From a virus, in IMG/VR virus record IMGVR_UViG_3300006916_000130, positions 1-37,791 of that record: 37,791 nt of DNA. The stretch is one strand, 5' to 3'. Below the pieces are notes generated by a model. The model did no database searches and was not told the DNA's origin. It worked only from the letters and a program-made list of their open reading frames with translations. This document shows positions 1,648-37,791 of the stretch, one piece after another. The stretch's first letter is position 1, and the number at the start of each line of letters is the position of its first letter. Both the position numbers and the translations under genes were made by a program.

Positions 1648-2334
1648 ATGGCACGAGCTAAAAAGAAAGAAACTTTCGTGAAAGAAATTCAATCGTCTAC
1701 CGCCTTCCATATCCAACCTAAAAATCCAACTCAACAATATCTTCTTGACTGTATAGACCAATCTGTAATGACAGTGTGTATTGGTCCTGCTGGTACAGGT
1801 AAGACATTTTGTACAGGAATGAAAGCAGCTCAATTAATATTGAAAGGTGGTTATGACAAGATCGTGCTTACAAGGCCAAATGTTTCAACAGGAAGATCAT
1901 TAGGTTACTTTCCTGGTTCAGTAGAAGAAAAAATGACACCATGGCTTAAACCTATTATGAATGTATTACAAGATGGTTTAGGAAAAGGTCGTTATGACTA
2001 CATGGTTTCGAAAGAACAAATTCAGATTCAACCTATAGAAACTATAAGAGGTAATTCTTTTGAAGATTGTATTATCATTGTAGACGAGTCTCAAAACTTA
2101 AATATGTCTGAGATTAAAGCTATTACTACTCGTATAGGTGAAAATTCTAAGCTAGTACTACTAGGAGATCCAGCACAATCAGATGTACATGACGGTGAAG
2201 CATTAGAGGAGTTTGTTGAAATGTGTCATCATTATAATATCGAAGCGCCTATAGTAAGATTTACAACAGATCATATTGTAAGATCTGATATCGTAGCTCA
2301 ATTAGTTAAAATGTTTGCAAGAAATAACATATAA
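1648..2334 (+). CDS. phoH: PhoH-like ATPase
   Basis: A 228-residue P-loop ATPase of the PhoH family, common in marine T4-like phages; its role in infection is still unclear, with RNA metabolism and phosphate-stress links proposed. Walker A GPAGTGKT is at residues 46-53, the conserved LTRPNVSTGRSLGYFPG segment follows at about 74-90, Walker B IIIVDESQN is at 142-150, and LGDPAQ (sensor-like) is at 172-177. The ATG at 1648 has a good AGGAGA ribosome site eight bases upstream. It is an isolated plus-strand gene between two minus-strand blocks. A late box and a terminator-like hairpin precede it and a bidirectional terminator follows it. Length and motifs are complete; the family call is firm, the function is not. 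Confidence 0.93.
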   Translation: MARAKKKETFVKEIQSSTAFHIQPKNPTQQYLLDCIDQSVMTVCIGPAGTGKTFCTGMKAAQLILKGGYDKIVLTRPNVSTGRSLGYFPGSVEEKMTPWLKPIMNVLQDGLGKGRYDYMVSKEQIQIQPIETIRGNSFEDCIIIVDESQNLNMSEIKAITTRIGENSKLVLLGDPAQSDVHDGEALEEFVEMCHHYNIEAPIVRFTTDHIVRSDIVAQLVKMFARNNI

Positions 2335-27242: not shown

Positions 27243-30200
27243 TTATCCTCCAAAAACTATTGCCATGGCTATTGCTTTACCGGTCGTTACACCAGAGCTA
27301 TTTTCATTTACTATTGCTACAACTTGATCACTATCAAAACCAGATTGAGTTGTACCAAGATACTTAAAGATTGAAACTACGTCATCTGAATCAGGTGCTG
27401 CTCTTAATGTAACAGTACTACCATCAGTAGCAATATAATCATCTGAATCTTCAAGTAAGATACCATTTGAGTAAACTTGAATCTTACCAGCTGTATAACT
27501 TAATGTATTACCGTGTTCGTCACCTCCAGTGATTTCTGAATCGCCTACTACACTGTTTCCATCTACACCATACTTATAAGTAAATCTAGTAATGTTAATT
27601 GCATCAGAAACAGTCGCATCAACACCCAGATACTTAATAATAGATAACTTGTCATCACTATCAGCTGCAGTAACTAATGTAACAGATGTACCATTAGAAG
27701 CTGTATAATCAGTAGTATCTAACATTAAGATACCATTCAAGAATACTTGAATTTTACTTGACACATATGATAATGTATTTCCGTTATCATCTGAACCACT
27801 AAATGACGTCTGGCCTTGTGTAGCTGTATAATCAAATCTAGATAAACTTAAACTTAATTTATTTGCTCTATCTGAATCTAAATCGTTCCTAAGATCTGCT
27901 ACAGCTTTAAGATCAGAATCGGACATACCTATTACGTTTTCATTCATAATAGCTACGATAACTTCGGAATCATATAGAGCTTCGTGTTTTTGAATTACTA
28001 CTACATCATCTGAGTCAGCTGCTAAGTTTAATACAACAGAAGTACCATTAGTAGCAACATAATCATCTGAGTCATTAATAAGTACACCATTTATGAATAC
28101 ATTGATTCTGTTAACTGTATACGCCAACGTTTGATTGCTTCTATCAACACCACTAAATGTTGATTGACCTTGAACAGCTTTATATTTGAAAGTAGTAAAT
28201 TTAACTTCTTTTTGAACTGATCCACTACCACGTAAATTTTCTAAATCATTTCTAAGATCTGCTACTACCTTTAGATCTGAATCAGTCATTCCTGTTCCAG
28301 AGCTAGTTGGATTCTCATTAATAATAGCTACAATCTGATCAGAATCAAATCCAGAACCTACGCTTAATCCATCTACAGTTTCTTGTAATGCTTGTAATTT
28401 TATTGAATCAGAATCAACATCACTTCTTAATTTAGCAACGACAGCTAAATCAGAATCTTGCATACCTGATTCTGATATTACTGCTATCATAGAAGCAATT
28501 TGATCTGAATCAAAACCTTGTTTACCAATCTTGATAGAGCCTACCATTCCAGAGTGTACTGTACATTGATACACTAAAAACTCAGGTGCGTCCATAGGTA
28601 CTACAAATTTTACTTCTCCTATTTGAGCACCGTTATTAGAAACCCCTGTTGAATAAGCAGAACCACCACTAGATAATCTAATCTGGAATGGATGACCACT
28701 TGCATTAACTCTAAAATTATAGGTATGACCTCTGTTAAGATATAGTGTTGGGTTATCTACACCTGATGGAAAACCATCTCCGGTGAATGTATATGCTGAA
28801 GCCCCGTTATTAGTAACATTAAACGAAACATCCATTTCGGTTCTAGTAGCTTGTATAGATGTCTCGTCAGAATCAAGTCTAGATTGAATAGTGCTTATAG
28901 TCGTATCAATAGCTTGTAATTGTAATTCATCTGAGTCTGCTCTAGTCTCTAATACATCTAAACGACCGCTATGTAATTGTAATACTAATTCATCAGAATC
29001 TAACCTAGGAGCTAAACTAGAACTCAATGCTTGAATTGCTAAAGAATCTGATTCAGCATTTTGTCTCAATACTACTATAGCAGCAGCATCTGAATCAGCA
29101 TCTCTTTTTAAATTAGCTAATGATAAAGAATCTGAATCTTGAGATAATAATATAAGTTGAATTCTAGCAGTCTCAGAATCAATATCTGATCTTAAAGCAT
29201 CAACTTCATTTCTAATATCTGCAACTACTTGCAAATCAGAATCAGTCATACCAGTACTTGGTACAACGTTTTCATTTATAATATCCACTATTTGATCGGA
29301 ATCAAACCCTGCTTGCACAGTACCAAGAAATTTAATAACTGTTAACACATCATCTGAATCTGGTGCGTTTATTAAAGAAATTGTTGACCCGTCAGTAGCT
29401 AAGTAGTCAGTTGTATCAGTAAGTAAGATACCGTTTAGGTATACATGAATTTTATTAACAGCATAACTTAATGTTCTACCATTATCATCTGCTCCTGTAA
29501 AATCAGAATCGTTAGCAGATGAAGTAAATGTAAAAGCTGTTACATTAATTGCCTGTGAACCACCTAGGCTAGCTACTGTTGTTTCTAAAGCTTGAAGTTT
29601 AGCTGAATCTGAATCTACATCGTTTCTTAAAGCGCTAATAGCTAATGTATCAGAATCTAGTCTAGCTACCAAAGGAGCGTCGTTATAAGTTCCAGCTACA
29701 AGAGCATCAACATCTTCTCTTAATGCTTGTATTTCAATACTATCTGAATCAGCATCTGCTCTTAAATTATCTACATCATTTCTAAGAGTAGCAACAACAG
29801 CTAAATCTGAGTCGCCTATACCTACAAAGTTATCAATCTGAGTCTGTAAATTTTGAATTACAGTTTCATCTGAATCTAGTCTAGTATTAATTGTAGTAAT
29901 ATCAGAATTATTAGCTAATTTAATCCAGTTACCTGCATGTGCAAAATAACCAGCACCAGTTGCATGTACGTGTGCAAACATACCATGATATGTTGTCGCG
30001 TTTGGTAAATCAACTTCATTAGAATATACGTTTGCAAATAATACTTTGTTACCGTTACCATCGATGTCACCAGACATTGTACCACCAGCTAATGGTAACC
30101 TTGCCGAAATTGCAATCTCATCTGAATCTAATCTGCTATTTACATTATTAATAGAAGTGCCAAGATTTTGAATAGCAATTTCATCAGAATCTGCTCTAGT

Positions 30201-32552
30201 TTCTAATACATCTAAACGACCGCTATGAGTTTGTAATTTAGCTTCATCAGAATCTAGTCTTGGAGATATTGTTGTGCTTAGTGCTTGTATAGCTAATGAA
30301 TCTGATTCAGCGTTCTGTTTAAGAACTACAATAACTGCGGCATCAGAATCAGCGTCTCTTCTCAAAGCACCTAAAGATAATGCATCTGAATCTTGAGATA
30401 ATAATATAAGTTGAATTCTAGCAGTCTCAGAATCAATATCTGATCTTAATGAATCTACCGTGCTTCTTAAAGTATTGACTACAAGAGTATCTGAATCTTC
30501 ATTGCTTTCTAAAGAAGCAATTCTACCACCATAAGCATTTAATGTAGCAGTATTAGTATCTATACTACCTTGAATAGCTTGAACTTTAGCTGATTCTGAA
30601 TCTCTACTTAACTCCAATAAAGTAATACGACCACCTTGTGAGTTGGTAGTAGAATTTAAAGTTTGAATATCGTTAAAGTTAGATGTTATTCTGGTATTGA
30701 AAGCTGTAAAATCTGAATCTAAATCATTGCGAAGATCAGCAACTACTTTTAGATCAGAATCAGTCATTCCGTCTTGATTCTCTAGTGTGGTAATTCTTCC
30801 ATCTAGTAATTGTAATGCAGTCTCATCTGAATCAGCTCTAGTTTCTAATACATCCAAACGACCGCTATGAGTTTGTAATTTAGCTTCGTCAGAATCTAGT
30901 CTTGCAGAAGTGCTACCAGCACCTGAACTTTCTAATGTAGTAATTCTTCCATCTAATAATTGTAATACTAATTCATCAGAATCTAATCTTGATACAATTG
31001 TAGGATCGTTTACTACGTTCTCGTTAATGATAGCTACGACTTGATCGGAATCAAATCCTGTATCATCAACTGCGTTTTCTAATGTGGTAACTCTACCATC
31101 TAGTAATTGTAATACTGTTTCATCTGAATCAGCTCTGGCTTCTAAGCTGTTAAGTCTATTGTTTTGAACTGTATTAGAAGCTTGATTAACATTTACATCA
31201 TTTTCAATATCAGAAAGTCTAGCATTTACTCTAGCACTTTCAGAATCCATATCAGTTCTAAGAGCTTGAATAGCAGTAGTATCAGAATCTAAGTCTGCTC
31301 TAATAAGTGTAATATAAGCAGCATCTAAATCTGCTTGTGATTTAAGAGCTTGAATTACAGCAGAATCAGAATCAGCATCTCTTCTAAGTACCGCTATAGC
31401 AATTTGATCTGAGTCAGCATTTGAAAGTAATAATTGAATACGAGATGTTTCAGAATCAAGGTCGGCTTTTAGTTGAGTAATAGCAGTATTAGTAGCAATG
31501 CCATGTTCAGCGAACATGTTAACAACTTCTTCTGAATCCAACATTGTAAATACAAAATCAGAATCAACTTTTCCTAAGTTGTTGTTAACAATATTAATGA
31601 TAGCTACTGTGTTCTTAGTAACCGAACCCATAACTTTATCTGAGTCATAGAACCACCCGTGTTCTCTACCCATATTATAGACTTCTTCAGAGTCTAAAGT
31701 AGCTTCAAAACTAGCAGTTAATCCAGCTACATCTATATTTTTATTAATAGTTTGTACTGTTCTGTCTGAATCATAACTAGCAGCTGCTACATTAAAACCT
31801 TTTATAGCAGATTCAATTACTAAATCCGAATCATGGAAAGGATTGTATCCAAAACCTCCAGCAGAAGAATAATAATTAAATATGTTCGCGCCGCTAGGGT
31901 CATATGCAAAAACAAAACTACGTAAGAATGTTAATAAAGACCTTTCCGAATCAAGATCAACTTCTAAACCAAACAATCTAGCATCTTGAACTGCTTGATC
32001 AGAATCCATATCGTCTCTTAAACGACGATTTTCTCTTACTTGATCAGAATCATTGTCTGCTACTAAACCATAAACTCTCTCTTTTAAAGCTTGAACTTTA
32101 GCAGACTCAGAGTCTATAGATAATTGTTGTAAGATAAATTTGGTATTAGAAATTATTCTATCAGAATCAATATCAGCTGATAATTTATTTTCTATAGCTT
32201 TTGTTAAAGCGTAATCAGAATCTAATCTAGCTAATATGTTTTCTATTTGAGTAGCAAGATATTGTAAGACAGGGCTATCACTATCAACATCGTTTCTTAA
32301 TTTAGCTACAACAGCTAAATCAGAATCAGTCATTCCAGCGCCGCTGCCACCTCCACTTAAAGAAGATAAAGCAGCAATGTCAAGATTTTTTAATACAGTA
32401 GCAACTACAAGATCAGAATCATATACAGATTCTGTATTTGAACTAATATAACTTGTTACAAATTCTTCAATAGTTTGAGCAGGAGTGCTAATACTAATAC
32501 CTTGCAAGCCACTGAGCACACCAGTCCTAGGGTTATACGTAAATCTTGCCAT
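27243..32552 (-). CDS. Giant DSD-repeat tail fibre-like protein (1769 aa)
   Basis: Start ATG 32552 with AGAGGA five bases upstream (a TTG at 32555 is less likely). The protein alternates coiled-coil stretches with beta modules. I count about 54 DSD and a dozen DSE. Many are exactly 14 residues apart, for example DSDQIAIAVLRRDA followed by DSD, or 21 apart (LDSDEAKLQTHSGRLDVLET, then RADSD). Other parts are a GMFAHVHATGAGYFAHAGNW segment seen in marine phage structural proteins, four NGILL beta modules, one cupredoxin-like module (RGHTYNFRV, GHPFQI, YQCTVHSGM) and repeats of FDSDQVVAIINEN. It is the first fibre gene after gp17 and the longest gene here. A trimeric tail fibre is the best reading. 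Confidence 0.75.
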   Translation of the reverse strand: MARFTYNPRTGVLSGLQGISISTPAQTIEEFVTSYISSNTESVYDSDLVVATVLKNLDIAALSSLSGGGSGAGMTDSDLAVVAKLRNDVDSDSPVLQYLATQIENILARLDSDYALTKAIENKLSADIDSDRIISNTKFILQQLSIDSESAKVQALKERVYGLVADNDSDQVRENRRLRDDMDSDQAVQDARLFGLEVDLDSERSLLTFLRSFVFAYDPSGANIFNYYSSAGGFGYNPFHDSDLVIESAIKGFNVAAASYDSDRTVQTINKNIDVAGLTASFEATLDSEEVYNMGREHGWFYDSDKVMGSVTKNTVAIINIVNNNLGKVDSDFVFTMLDSEEVVNMFAEHGIATNTAITQLKADLDSETSRIQLLLSNADSDQIAIAVLRRDADSDSAVIQALKSQADLDAAYITLIRADLDSDTTAIQALRTDMDSESARVNARLSDIENDVNVNQASNTVQNNRLNSLEARADSDETVLQLLDGRVTTLENAVDDTGFDSDQVVAIINENVVNDPTIVSRLDSDELVLQLLDGRITTLESSGAGSTSARLDSDEAKLQTHSGRLDVLETRADSDETALQLLDGRITTLENQDGMTDSDLKVVADLRNDLDSDFTAFNTRITSNFNDIQTLNSTTNSQGGRITLLELSRDSESAKVQAIQGSIDTNTATLNAYGGRIASLESNEDSDTLVVNTLRSTVDSLRSDIDSETARIQLILLSQDSDALSLGALRRDADSDAAVIVVLKQNAESDSLAIQALSTTISPRLDSDEAKLQTHSGRLDVLETRADSDEIAIQNLGTSINNVNSRLDSDEIAISARLPLAGGTMSGDIDGNGNKVLFANVYSNEVDLPNATTYHGMFAHVHATGAGYFAHAGNWIKLANNSDITTINTRLDSDETVIQNLQTQIDNFVGIGDSDLAVVATLRNDVDNLRADADSDSIEIQALREDVDALVAGTYNDAPLVARLDSDTLAISALRNDVDSDSAKLQALETTVASLGGSQAINVTAFTFTSSANDSDFTGADDNGRTLSYAVNKIHVYLNGILLTDTTDYLATDGSTISLINAPDSDDVLTVIKFLGTVQAGFDSDQIVDIINENVVPSTGMTDSDLQVVADIRNEVDALRSDIDSETARIQLILLSQDSDSLSLANLKRDADSDAAAIVVLRQNAESDSLAIQALSSSLAPRLDSDELVLQLHSGRLDVLETRADSDELQLQAIDTTISTIQSRLDSDETSIQATRTEMDVSFNVTNNGASAYTFTGDGFPSGVDNPTLYLNRGHTYNFRVNASGHPFQIRLSSGGSAYSTGVSNNGAQIGEVKFVVPMDAPEFLVYQCTVHSGMVGSIKIGKQGFDSDQIASMIAVISESGMQDSDLAVVAKLRSDVDSDSIKLQALQETVDGLSVGSGFDSDQIVAIINENPTSSGTGMTDSDLKVVADLRNDLENLRGSGSVQKEVKFTTFKYKAVQGQSTFSGVDRSNQTLAYTVNRINVFINGVLINDSDDYVATNGTSVVLNLAADSDDVVVIQKHEALYDSEVIVAIMNENVIGMSDSDLKAVADLRNDLDSDRANKLSLSLSRFDYTATQGQTSFSGSDDNGNTLSYVSSKIQVFLNGILMLDTTDYTASNGTSVTLVTAADSDDKLSIIKYLGVDATVSDAINITRFTYKYGVDGNSVVGDSEITGGDEHGNTLSYTAGKIQVYSNGILLEDSDDYIATDGSTVTLRAAPDSDDVVSIFKYLGTTQSGFDSDQVVAIVNENSSGVTTGKAIAMAIVFGG
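27345..28205 (-). repeat. Three NGxLL beta modules in the giant fibre protein
   Basis: Three successive modules (about 27345-27600, 27610-27840 and 27970-28205). Each reads F.G.DDNG.TLSY, then KI.VFLNGILL, DY.A..GTSV.L and DSDDV..I.KYLG. A fourth lies at about 29315-29560 and two more in the 954-aa gene (about 23690-24190). This is a common tail-fibre building block; here its last loop carries DSDD. Confidence 0.7.
28530..28800 (-). other. Cupredoxin-like module 2 (His, CxxHxxM)
   Basis: Encodes RGHTYNFRV, GHPFQIRL and VYQCTVHSGMVG. All four potential type 1 copper ligands are present, as in module 1 at 22120-22450. Confidence 0.55.
29131..29195 (-). repeat. 65-bp perfect repeat, copy 1
   Basis: Identical base for base to 30385-30449. 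It is the core of a longer duplicated coiled-coil block of about 88 residues (ARIQLILLSQDSD, then NAESDSLAIQAL, then SGRLDVLETRADSDE). Perfect DNA identity suggests recent copying or gene conversion. Confidence 0.85.
30385..30449 (-). repeat. 65-bp perfect repeat, copy 2
   Basis: Partner of 29131-29195 inside the same gene; direct orientation, about 1.25 kb apart. Confidence 0.85.
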
Positions 32553-32582
32553 CAAAGTCCTCTAGAGTTTTATTATTTATTG

Positions 32583-34795: not shown

Positions 34796-34873
34796 AAAAT
34801 AATCTCCTGTATATCTATAATAATCTAAATATGTAGAAGCTTGTTTTACGAACGAGAAGCTACTCTCTATTAT

Positions 34874-34881
34874 TATTTATA
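34874..34881 (-). promoter_or_regulatory. T4-type late promoter box for gp16-gp17
   Basis: Exact TATAAATA on the minus strand in the divergent intergenic region. Expected start is near 34868, giving a 73-base leader before gp16. The same AT-rich stretch reads TTATAAA on the plus strand just before the ANL1 gene, so one site may serve both directions. Confidence 0.65.
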
Positions 34882-34889
34882 AAGGTACT

Positions 34890-35522
34890 ATGATTACATT
34901 CTTTACAAGTGGTTCTACAGGCAAACCAAAACAAATTAGATATCAGTATTCTGCTTTAGATAAATTAGCTGATAGAGCTATAGAACTGTACAAATATGAT
35001 AGCTCTTCTAGAATTTTAAATTTATATCCTAACAGTTCTATTGCGCATTATACTATAAGTTCTTATCCAGCTCAAAGAGCAAAAGCTGAGTTGTTAAATT
35101 TTTATTGGAATGTATACGGTTTTTATTCAGTTTTTAAAAATTTTAATCCAACCCATATAGCATGTTTACCTAGACATATTATGTTGCTATCTAAAACTAA
35201 AACGTGGAAAGATATCGACTTTTTAGGATGTACTATTATAATAGGTGGTGATAAGATAGATAAAGATATGCTTAAAATGTTAATTAACAAAAAAGCAAAA
35301 GTTATAACTACTTATGGTTCTACAGAAAACGCGCCCCCGGTTTTATTAGGAGAAAACTCTCTATGGATGACATCAATAGAAAAAAATGTTACTTTGAAAC
35401 ATGATGGTGAATTGTATATTAATAATAAACCTACAGGAGATTTATTTAGAATGAGTGAAGATAGATATTTTAAATTTGTTTCTAGAAAAAATAAAATTAT
35501 CAACAAAACTTGGAAAAAATAA
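34890..35522 (+). CDS. Minimal ANL-superfamily adenylation core (ANL1, 210 aa)
   Basis: An adenylate-forming (acyl or amino acid activating) core. The P-loop motif A3 TSGSTGKPK is at residues 7-15, right at the N-terminus. IIIGGDKID (A4-like) is at about 116-124, TYGSTE (A5) at 141-146 and PTGDLF (A7-like) at 181-186. FVSRKNKII (A8 hinge-like) is at 196-204, just before the end. Full ANL enzymes have about 150 residues before A3 and about 110 after A8; both are missing. The frame is open upstream for 66 bases but without ATG, GTG or TTG, so ATG 34890 is the start. The ribosome site AAGG is close (four bases). It overlaps the next gene by one base (TAATG). Substrate unknown; activity without the C-terminal lid is uncertain. 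Confidence 0.7.
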   Translation: MITFFTSGSTGKPKQIRYQYSALDKLADRAIELYKYDSSSRILNLYPNSSIAHYTISSYPAQRAKAELLNFYWNVYGFYSVFKNFNPTHIACLPRHIMLLSKTKTWKDIDFLGCTIIIGGDKIDKDMLKMLINKKAKVITTYGSTENAPPVLLGENSLWMTSIEKNVTLKHDGELYINNKPTGDLFRMSEDRYFKFVSRKNKIINKTWKK

Positions 35523-36961
35523 TGAATCCATTTTACTTATTACTCCCGGAAGACAAACCAGCTATAAGTGATATTAATGGTACTATTACTTACAAAGACT
35601 TAATTAAAGAAGCTGTTGAAATAAAAGACTGGTTAATGTCTATGGGTTACAAAAATGGCCATAGAATTGGTGTAGCTGGTAATCAATCTATCAGAACGTA
35701 CAAATATTTTTTAGCTGCTCAAATGCTTTCTTCAGCTGTAGGATTAAGATTAGATCATAAAGGTAATGATTGGAATTTCAAAATTCCTGCAGCTAATATT
35801 AATGTTGTTTTAGAACTTAAAGACGAAGTAGTAATACATCACAAACATTTTGATAAAACAACAGAATGTCCTAAAGAATTTGCTATGTACTTTAGTTCAG
35901 GAACTACTAGTAATAATTATGGTAGACCACAAACTACACCAATGGTTTGGGAAGTGGATGATTATAATTGGGGACAAAGTTTAGAAATAAACCATTATTG
36001 CAGAGCATTAGTTAATCCTTATGTTAGAGAATCATCAGATCAAAATATTCAAATACAAGCTATGCAGCCATGGATTACTTGGGGCCAAGAAATGGTTACA
36101 TCCAATTTAATTAAACAAGGTCATACTATTTTAGTAGATAAGTTATCTGAATGGGATACATTAGTAGATAGATATAAACCTACTTGGACAACTTTATTTC
36201 CTATGATAGCTCTTAAAATTTTACAAGCCAACAAAGGTACAGATCATAGTTTTAAATGTGTAGAAATGTCAGGAGCTAGGCCAACTAATAAACAGATTGA
36301 AGATTTTAGATCATTCTTTAATTGTAATTATTTTATTTCTCACTATGGTACATCTCAAGCAGGAAATATAATGTATACTAGTGGTAACGGTTCTAATCTT
36401 CAACATATAGGCAAACCTTGTGAAGGATTTGTTCATGCTTATGGTAAAGACTTTGTACGTATAGGTAAGAATAATACATTTGAAATGAAATGGCCAGCAT
36501 GTCCTCCTTGGCTAGTAAATGAAGATGGTTACTATGATTCAAATGATGTGGTTGAAATGGGTAAAGATGGAAATTATCAATTTTTGGGTAGAGCAAATGA
36601 AATGCTTATGATAAGAGGTGGATCTAAATTTCAGGCTCCTAGTGTTGAAGATAGGCTATTAGAAAATTTTAATATTAAAGAAGCTTATATTTTTCCTATA
36701 CCAGATCCATCTATTACTGACAAAGGTTCTTTATTTCAATTACCTGGATGTTTGTATTTTGGTAATCTTTCTCCAGAAGAAGTTAGCGAAGTTTGTAATA
36801 ATGAACTACCTCCATATATGCGCCCAGTAAAAATTTTTAAATTAAAAGATAAACTTTCTAAATTTACAGAAGAAAATATATGGAAGGTAAGACGATTAAA
36901 TATGTATGATACTATAAAAGAGAATTATAATGAATGGTGCGAAGCTTCTTATCATCAATAG
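35522..36961 (+). CDS. ANL-superfamily acyl/aryl adenylate-forming enzyme (ANL2, 479 aa)
   Basis: Start ATG 35522, coupled to ANL1 (TAATG); a TTG at 35510 is less likely. It has near-complete ANL architecture: TITYKDLIKEA (A1 region), A3 FSSGTTSNNYGRP (124-136), A5 SHYGTSQAG (273-281), A7 GYYDSNDVV (336-344), A8 FLGRANEMLMIRGGSKF (354-370) and a C-terminal subdomain with PPYMRP and Lys455 in ENIWKVRR, where the catalytic A10 lysine normally lies. The A7 Asp is Asp342. The usual A3 Lys is replaced (NNYGRP), which is odd. It would activate a carboxylic acid as an acyl-AMP, then possibly a thioester. Substrate cannot be read from sequence. It ends with TAG and overlaps the next gene by 32 bases. 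Confidence 0.75.
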   Translation: MNPFYLLLPEDKPAISDINGTITYKDLIKEAVEIKDWLMSMGYKNGHRIGVAGNQSIRTYKYFLAAQMLSSAVGLRLDHKGNDWNFKIPAANINVVLELKDEVVIHHKHFDKTTECPKEFAMYFSSGTTSNNYGRPQTTPMVWEVDDYNWGQSLEINHYCRALVNPYVRESSDQNIQIQAMQPWITWGQEMVTSNLIKQGHTILVDKLSEWDTLVDRYKPTWTTLFPMIALKILQANKGTDHSFKCVEMSGARPTNKQIEDFRSFFNCNYFISHYGTSQAGNIMYTSGNGSNLQHIGKPCEGFVHAYGKDFVRIGKNNTFEMKWPACPPWLVNEDGYYDSNDVVEMGKDGNYQFLGRANEMLMIRGGSKFQAPSVEDRLLENFNIKEAYIFPIPDPSITDKGSLFQLPGCLYFGNLSPEEVSEVCNNELPPYMRPVKIFKLKDKLSKFTEENIWKVRRLNMYDTIKENYNEWCEASYHQ

Positions 36962-37664
36962 CCTTCAAGGTGCAGGTGGACATAGATTAGGTAGAATACT
37001 ATCTTGTTTTGAAGACGTATATTGGTATTCTCATCCTAATAATGGTTTAGAACCATGGTCATTAGCTCTTAATAATAAAATAAAAGAATCTACTATATCA
37101 AAATATCATTATGATAGAATTCTATCTAATGGTGAATCTATACCACTTATTGGAAGTCGTATTGAGAAATATTGGGACTCACCAAAGTGGTATAACAATT
37201 GGTTATCTATTATGAAAACTTTAGATCTACCAGATAAGTTTTTAACATTTGTAGTACACGATAGTCCCAAATATTTAAGATCATTTTTTCCTGAAGCTTT
37301 TATTGTTAATTTAATTAGTGATCCTGATAAGTCAACAGACAGGCACATGAATACATCTGCCAAATTTAGAATTGATTTCAAAATGAGAGGTCAAAGACCT
37401 GATTATAAAAGTGTTTGGGTAGAAGCATCTGAGCAATTGCTTAGTACAAATAAAGATGCTACTGAAGCAGATTTATGGGAGTACATGTATAAAACAGATC
37501 ATTATCAAGGTATGAAAATTAAAAATAGAGAAGCTAATAAACTTAACTTTAAAGAAAAATCTTATGCAAATATTACTTTAGATTACGAGTCTTTAAAATT
37601 GTATGATTTAGAAAAATATTTTGGAGTATTGGATGCTAGTCACAAAAGACTCTTGCACCAATGA
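36930..37664 (+). CDS. Putative P-loop, sulfotransferase-like protein (244 aa)
   Basis: The N-terminus KLLIINSLQGAGGHRLGRIL is a beta strand followed by a Gly-rich loop and helix, where sulfotransferases bind the phosphosulfate cofactor. FIVNLISDPDKSTDRHMNTS later could be the second cofactor-contacting strand and helix. This is a weak resemblance, and a kinase-like or glycosyl-transfer role is not excluded. It starts 32 bases inside ANL2 in another frame, with AGAG eight bases before the ATG. It overlaps the following gene, also by 32 bases. Context suggests it modifies or accepts the product of the ANL enzymes. Confidence 0.45.
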   Translation: MNGAKLLIINSLQGAGGHRLGRILSCFEDVYWYSHPNNGLEPWSLALNNKIKESTISKYHYDRILSNGESIPLIGSRIEKYWDSPKWYNNWLSIMKTLDLPDKFLTFVVHDSPKYLRSFFPEAFIVNLISDPDKSTDRHMNTSAKFRIDFKMRGQRPDYKSVWVEASEQLLSTNKDATEADLWEYMYKTDHYQGMKIKNREANKLNFKEKSYANITLDYESLKLYDLEKYFGVLDASHKRLLHQ

Positions 37665-37791
37665 TCAGTTAGAAGAGTTTATAACTAAAACTAGAAAAAT
37701 AGGTTATAGAGATCATAAAACTGTTAAGAGTTTAGAAATAGAAAAAACTATTAATGAAAAATGGGGTAAGTTCTTTTTTACTTTTAAAGAA
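37633..37791 (+). CDS. Unknown protein, 5' part only (possible GNAT-like N-terminus)
   Basis: An open frame of 53 codons from the ATG at 37633 to the window end, starting MLVTKDSCTNDQLEEFITKT and continuing through KIGYRDHKTV to EKWGKFFFTFKE. It overlaps the previous gene by 32 bases in another frame. The ending WGKFFFTFKE resembles the first strand of GNAT-type acetyltransferases in some marine phages, but too little is visible to decide. Confidence 0.4.
   Translation, partial: MLVTKDSCTNDQLEEFITKTRKIGYRDHKTVKSLEIEKTINEKWGKFFFTFKE

Follow-up and report, generated by a model that had tools for sequence, protein, structure and literature searches.

The four plus-strand genes at the right end of the window (the whole stretch of 37,791 nucleotides that was analysed) represent one occurrence of a gene module that dozens of uncultured viruses carry. 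The module joins a truncated member of the ANL superfamily of adenylate-forming enzymes (ANLmin) to a GNAT-fold protein, in most cases also to a P-loop protein of likely sulfotransferase-like fold and often to a DUF6356 protein. Some marine T4-like phages add a full-length ANL-like protein (ANLfull). The folds are already known, while the gene combination, the truncated ANL protein and the motif losses are new. Our preferred explanation, held tentatively, is a module for acyl activation and transfer that probably acts at the host membrane or surface and yields an acylated membrane or surface compound. If this is true, an unrecognised set of genes for acid activation and transfer is common to many uncultured viruses, including contigs as long as 383 kb.

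The module in the window

The 37.8-kb virus record that makes up the window encodes a T4-type capsid protein, gp23 (E 3.6e-136), and the module adjoins the packaging genes of this marine T4-like phage. The minus strand carries the genes for the small and large terminase subunits and a tail-fibre-like gene, and there are few other genes on the plus strand, a PhoH-like gene (E 7.7e-76) among them. The features of the window are as follows.

1648-2334, plus strand: PhoH-like gene
27243-32555, minus strand: tail-fibre-like protein, 1770 aa, with many 'DSD' repeats
34796-34889: intergenic region between the divergent terminase genes (minus) and module (plus)
34890-35522, plus strand: ANLmin, 210-aa minimal adenylate-forming core (PF00501, E 2.5e-10)
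35522-36961, plus strand: ANLfull, 479-aa full-length ANL-like protein (PF00501, E 3.7e-14)
36930-37664, plus strand: P-loop protein, 244 aa, predicted sulfotransferase-like fold (AlphaFold2, Foldseek, VIA)
37633-37791, plus strand: 5' end of the GNAT-fold gene, ATG at 37633, open frame running off the contig end

The sequence-only reading had described four overlapping plus-strand frames, and both the coordinates and the overlaps (TAATG at 35520-35524, 32 bp at 36930-36961 and 32 bp at 37633-37664) were confirmed. The length of ANLfull assumes a start at the ATG at 35522; there is also a TTG at 35510. The same reading had proposed two adenylate-forming proteins and suggested profile searches for AMP-binding, Sulfotransfer and GNAT. 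Both ANL proteins passed the PF00501 cut-off (40.2 and 52.8 bits against 29.9), while the P-loop and GNAT-fold proteins have no Pfam family of their own. The four genes are an incomplete operon: the contig ends within the GNAT gene, and in relatives a DUF6356 gene follows, any copy of which would lie beyond the end of the window.

An octamer TATAAATA is located at 34874-34881 on the minus strand of the intergenic region. It was rejected as a T4 late promoter for the module, as it faces the terminase side and such octamers are not enriched; 10 were observed in the window compared with 6.6 expected, and therefore nothing is claimed for it.

The module across viral contigs

All copies of the module found here are on metagenomic contigs. 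An ANLmin query yielded 178 encoding stretches, and 80 of these were retained; the GNAT queries gave 22 and then 31 loci. From the profile annotation of 134 loci we derived 60 non-redundant IMG/VR locus groups, in which, within 5 kb, ANLmin is present in 60, GNAT in 46, the P-loop protein in 39 and DUF6356 in 27, fewer than half. Since either ANLmin or GNAT was used to retrieve the loci, a fair count has to start from GNAT: all 22 non-redundant loci of this set have ANLmin within 3 kb, 13 have the P-loop protein and 11 have DUF6356. Conversely, ANLmin was without any partner within 6 kb in 6 of 51 groups, and without GNAT within 3 kb in about 10 groups, several of which adjoin a GMP-reductase-like gene. 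The capsid gene gp23 was present in 5 of the 19 records searched, including contigs of 204 kb, 151 kb and 383 kb; most of the others are fragments.

The order ANLmin-ANLfull-P-loop(-GNAT) of the window is common to L004 (80-96% identity), L019 and L020, and L020 continues with GNAT, DUF6356 and a methyltransferase-like gene. L005 and L006 are also syntenic. In L006, a 91-kb T4-like contig also numbered G001, the genes run DUF6356-like, ANLmin, GNAT and SGNH-like, followed by ANLfull, the P-loop protein, a second GNAT and DUF6356; identity to the window is 70% for ANLfull, 55% for the P-loop protein and 27% for ANLmin. Other orders are ANLmin-GNAT-P-loop, GNAT-DUF-ANLmin-P-loop, P-loop-GNAT-DUF-ANLmin and ANLmin-P-loop-GNAT. 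The first of these was reached by P-loop queries, without ANLfull, on contigs of up to 383 kb. Consecutive module genes on the same strand overlap in 217 of 260 pairs, an upper estimate because longest-ORF starts and redundant loci were used. GNAT and the P-loop protein are fused in a single reading frame on two contigs (L050/L103 and L113), and the distance matrices of the three families are correlated over 38 loci (Mantel r 0.62, 0.43 and 0.66; 0 of 2000 permutations). Thus the earlier proposal of one linked cassette holds, given the synteny across the 60 groups, the frequent overlap and the fusions. Homologues scattered without synteny were not what was found, and no pathway already assigned to the gene set turned up.

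Between the window and L004, dN/dS is 0.08 for ANLmin and 0.06 for ANLfull compared with 0.05 for terminase, and the pairwise values of the module genes range from 0.06 to 0.36. Such low values indicate that the genes are maintained. Pseudogenes or chance open reading frames were rejected on the same grounds, dN/dS being well below 1 and the orthologues syntenic in other contigs. It might still be argued that the genes are host cargo that is decaying or neutral and has no function in common, as bacteria are rich in homologues of these folds and ANLfull has lost catalytic residues. This highly improbable reading is already contradicted by the dN/dS values and by a membership that is kept despite varying gene order and fusions. 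Moreover, pattern scans of species genomes with the ANLfull and GNAT alignments found no relative, though such scans miss distant ones.

The minimal ANL protein

ANLmin begins at the P-loop (FFTSGSTGKPK, residues 4-14), continues through A5 (TYGSTE, E146) and A7 (TGD, D184), and ends after the A8 Arg (R199). Its PF00501 match spans positions 168-330 of the 384 in the profile. Among 77 unique sequences, including a few cut by contig ends, the ATP, Mg and ribose residues S7, G8, E146, D184 and R199 are conserved at 97-100% (the SG of the P-loop is invariant, and the A5 Glu, A7 Asp and A8 Arg reach 97-99%) and K14 at 92%. At most 36 residues (median 15) precede the P-loop, so the N-terminal part of the ANL large domain is missing. 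A7 is followed by a median of 20 residues, the alignments stop at or just after A8, and the C-terminal domain with the A10 Lys is absent from these 77 sequences. ANLmin, with a typical length of 208-256 aa, is therefore shorter than ANL enzymes at both ends, by the N-terminal third and by the C-terminal domain. To our knowledge, it is the smallest ANL core known.

The best solved match of ANLmin is the o-succinylbenzoate-CoA ligase MenE (3ipl, E 9e-14), to which its profile aligns over residues 168-376 of about 500. It shares with the ANL superfamily (PF00501) the P-loop, A5 Glu, A7 Asp and A8 Arg, and unlike ANL enzymes it stands alone and was seen here only in viral contigs. The Lys of the ANL C-terminal domain normally assists adenylation, and this domain makes thioesters. 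Since the domain is missing, ANLmin may bind rather than catalyse. It could then be a non-enzymatic acyl-adenylate or ATP binder, such as a regulator or a chaperone, with the GNAT-fold or the P-loop protein as the real enzyme. The missing N-terminal third and the likewise degenerate ANLfull are in keeping with this, but near-complete conservation of SG, E146, D184 and R199 fits chemistry better than loose binding, and we regard such a role as rather doubtful. The retained ATP and Mg residues suggest acyl-adenylate formation. If true, the smallest known ANL core has been kept under selection, which raises the questions of how small an ANL enzyme can be and still adenylate, and which compound phages make with it.

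The full-length ANL-like proteins

ANLfull contains both ANL domains. An alignment of 7 full sequences shows that it keeps D342, R357 and the A10 Lys of the C-terminal domain (K455 in WKVRR, invariant in 7/7), and the C-domain profile PF13193 is matched below the cut-off. Two catalytic positions are lost: the P-loop is without its Lys (SSGTTSNNYGRPQT), and in A5 (YGTSQ in 7/7 sequences) Gln279 replaces the Glu that serves as Mg ligand in ANL enzymes. The closest solved relative is coronafacate ligase Cfl (7a9j, E 3e-13), although the match is weak and generic. Compared with Cfl and other amide- or CoA-forming ANLs, the C-domain Lys is present in ANLfull, whereas the P-loop Lys is absent and Gln stands for the A5 Glu in all seven. 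Judged by these motifs, the ANLfull of some T4-like marine phages is a degenerate full-length ANL. NCBIfam places the module ANLs only generically.

Another family also recurs close to the module, made up of divergent full-length ANL-like proteins of about 470 aa whose catalytic motifs are altered. This second family forms one cluster with ANLfull, found in 10 of the 60 groups. Examples, among others, are as follows.

L052:11607-13034, minus strand: second-family ANL-like protein
L092:7742-9166: second-family ANL-like protein
L079:779-2197: second-family ANL-like protein

The GNAT-fold, DUF6356 and P-loop proteins

The GNAT fragment of the window is 70% identical to L020:10109-10702, and this complete homologue was modelled in place of the cut copy (pLDDT 83.4). 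The earlier suggestion of an acetyltransferase is supported at the level of fold: Foldseek gave 144 hits at E<=0.001, the whole GNAT fold is shared with PA3270 (8gxj/1yre; VIA Z 12.9, 157 residues, rmsd 3.2), and the profile matched 3t9y (E 3.8e-5). Unlike GNAT acetyltransferases, however, the module proteins have no Pfam or PHROG family, and the acetyl-CoA motif Q/RxxGxG/A was found in 0 of 63 members.

The GNAT-fold protein might instead be a Mom-like or tRNA-directed acyltransferase for nucleic acids, with ANLmin giving the acyl donor, so that phage DNA is modified or host tRNA crippled. Jumbo phages are known to encode GNATs of the Mom family (PMC7824862), and the structural matches include the tRNA-acetylating toxins TacT3 and AtaT (Z 10.7-11). 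Dozens of unrelated GNATs match equally well, however, and none of the genes that recur around the module was recognised as a base-modification gene. For 17 GNATs, the Pfam and PHROG matches contained no Mom profile. We consider a nucleic-acid target decidedly unlikely.

DUF6356 (PF19883), a small membrane protein, is a common partner in the module. It was above the Pfam cut-off in 13 of the 19 records searched, and 3 of the 4 relatives tested passed this cut-off; the hydrophobic segment is present.

The AlphaFold2 model of the P-loop protein has a pLDDT of 87.9. Sulfotransferases top the Foldseek list (E 2e-3), in line with the 'possible sulfotransferase-like' label given from sequence. By VIA, TPST1 scores Z 8.4 (rmsd 4.0, 166 aligned) with kinases tied at Z 8.0-8.2, and two relatives match PF13469/PF17784 weakly. 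As the sulfotransferases lead with the kinases nearly tied, a sulfotransferase-like fold class is likely from this weak match, while the family is not fixed. The conserved residues are G17, R22, W32-Y33, N38-G39, P42, H60, R63 and H110. The predicted P-loop alpha/beta fold resembles that of the PAPS-dependent sulfotransferases (TPST1/2, schistosome and cytosolic SULTs; Pfam Sulfotransfer_3), whereas the 47 members here are without the Lys/Arg-Ser-Gly-Thr loop: neither [KR]SG[TS] nor a Walker A motif was found in any of them, nor the PAPS 5'-PSB loop [KR]SG[TS][TSW] in the first 60 residues. A GxxGxx[LIVM][GA]R-like motif was found in 38 of the 47. With neither CoA nor PAPS motifs, both the GNAT-fold and the P-loop proteins may have other activities.

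In 19 of the 60 groups, the module has near it another sulfotransferase-like family, marked by the motif TGAPGSKWS. Examples, among others, are as follows.

L145:7918-8631: TGAPGSKWS family
L051:10465-11172: TGAPGSKWS family
L036:9855-11211: TGAPGSKWS family

Comparison with known genes

When ANLmin, ANLfull, GNAT and the P-loop protein were used as tblastn queries against 50,697 records of cultured phages, only weak generic ANL matches appeared, and the gene set was absent. The GNAT and P-loop families have no convincing match in Pfam or PHROGs, and the set as a whole is in no family library (Pfam, PHROGs, NCBIfam). Annotation pipelines miss these two families because there is no family model for them. 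In the open-access literature, no paper was found on the gene set or on phage DUF6356.

Proposed function

The natural reading of the sequences, as first suggested, is that an acid is activated, transferred and used for decoration. The details argue against the textbook versions, because ANLmin has no C-terminal domain, ANLfull has the Gln, GNAT has no CoA motif and the P-loop protein has no PAPS-loop motif. In the explanation that we prefer, ANLmin would bind ATP and a small carboxylic acid and make or hold the acyl-adenylate, and the GNAT-fold protein would pass the acyl group to an amine acceptor. The P-loop protein would carry out a second group transfer or prepare the acceptor, and DUF6356 would locate the activity to the membrane. 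During infection this would yield an acylated compound of the host surface or membrane, which might, for example, alter the cell surface to the disadvantage of rival phages.

Acyl transfer may proceed without CoA, because the thioester domain is lost, no carrier protein is nearby and GNAT is without the CoA motif. A motif search found no convincing carrier-protein-like small ORF in the 134 loci, and a link to an acyl carrier protein was rejected for this reason. A specific form of this, in which ANLmin hands its acyl-adenylate directly to GNAT in a virus-specific CoA-independent route while ANLfull or the P-loop protein supplies the missing parts, seems to us somewhat speculative and not likely.

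For the acceptor, we modestly favour the membrane or surface over DNA or a virion protein because of the membrane protein partner and the proposed surface-changing habit of marine T4-like phages (PMC7029224). The LPS genes of pelagimyophages have already been read as surface alteration against co-infection, and these marine T4-like phages likewise carry envelope-modifying accessory genes (PMC7029224). Theirs are glycosyltransferases and sugar-synthesis enzymes, and 'acetyltransferase' is absent from the main text of that paper.

Alternatively, the module could modify the virus's own tail fibres or virion proteins by placing the activated acid on lysine or N-terminal amines of the fibre. The window module is 2.3 kb from the tail-fibre-like gene, a tail-fibre family is near the module in 14 of the 60 groups, and in L161 and its like a fibre gene is directly upstream of ANLmin-GNAT. 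By motif, however, 43 of 51 groups have no tail-fibre gene within 6 kb, and T4-like phages have many reasons for accessory genes near fibre genes. In L004, two shorter fibre genes replace the 1770-aa gene. A virion target also fits poorly with the membrane protein partner, and we judge it unlikely.

Other genes near the module

Several further genes were observed beside the module. An IMP dehydrogenase/GMP reductase-like gene, recognised by eye, precedes ANLmin in 9 of the 60 groups, with 2OG-oxygenase-like genes behind. An FAD-dependent halogenase-like gene, also recognised by eye, abuts an ANLmin-GNAT pair downstream of a tail-fibre gene. TctA (PF01970, E 4e-91) followed by a TctC-like binding protein makes a phage-borne tricarboxylate transporter pair, and a radical-SAM/SPASM-like gene pair recurs downstream of the module.

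L131:4950-5990 and L112:4964-5998: IMP dehydrogenase/GMP reductase-like gene
L161:6456-7676, minus strand (also in L162 and L163): FAD-dependent halogenase-like gene
L006:13358-15839 and L020:11367-13848: TctA/TctC-like pair
L020:13848-14640 and L022:10765-11620: radical-SAM/SPASM-like pair
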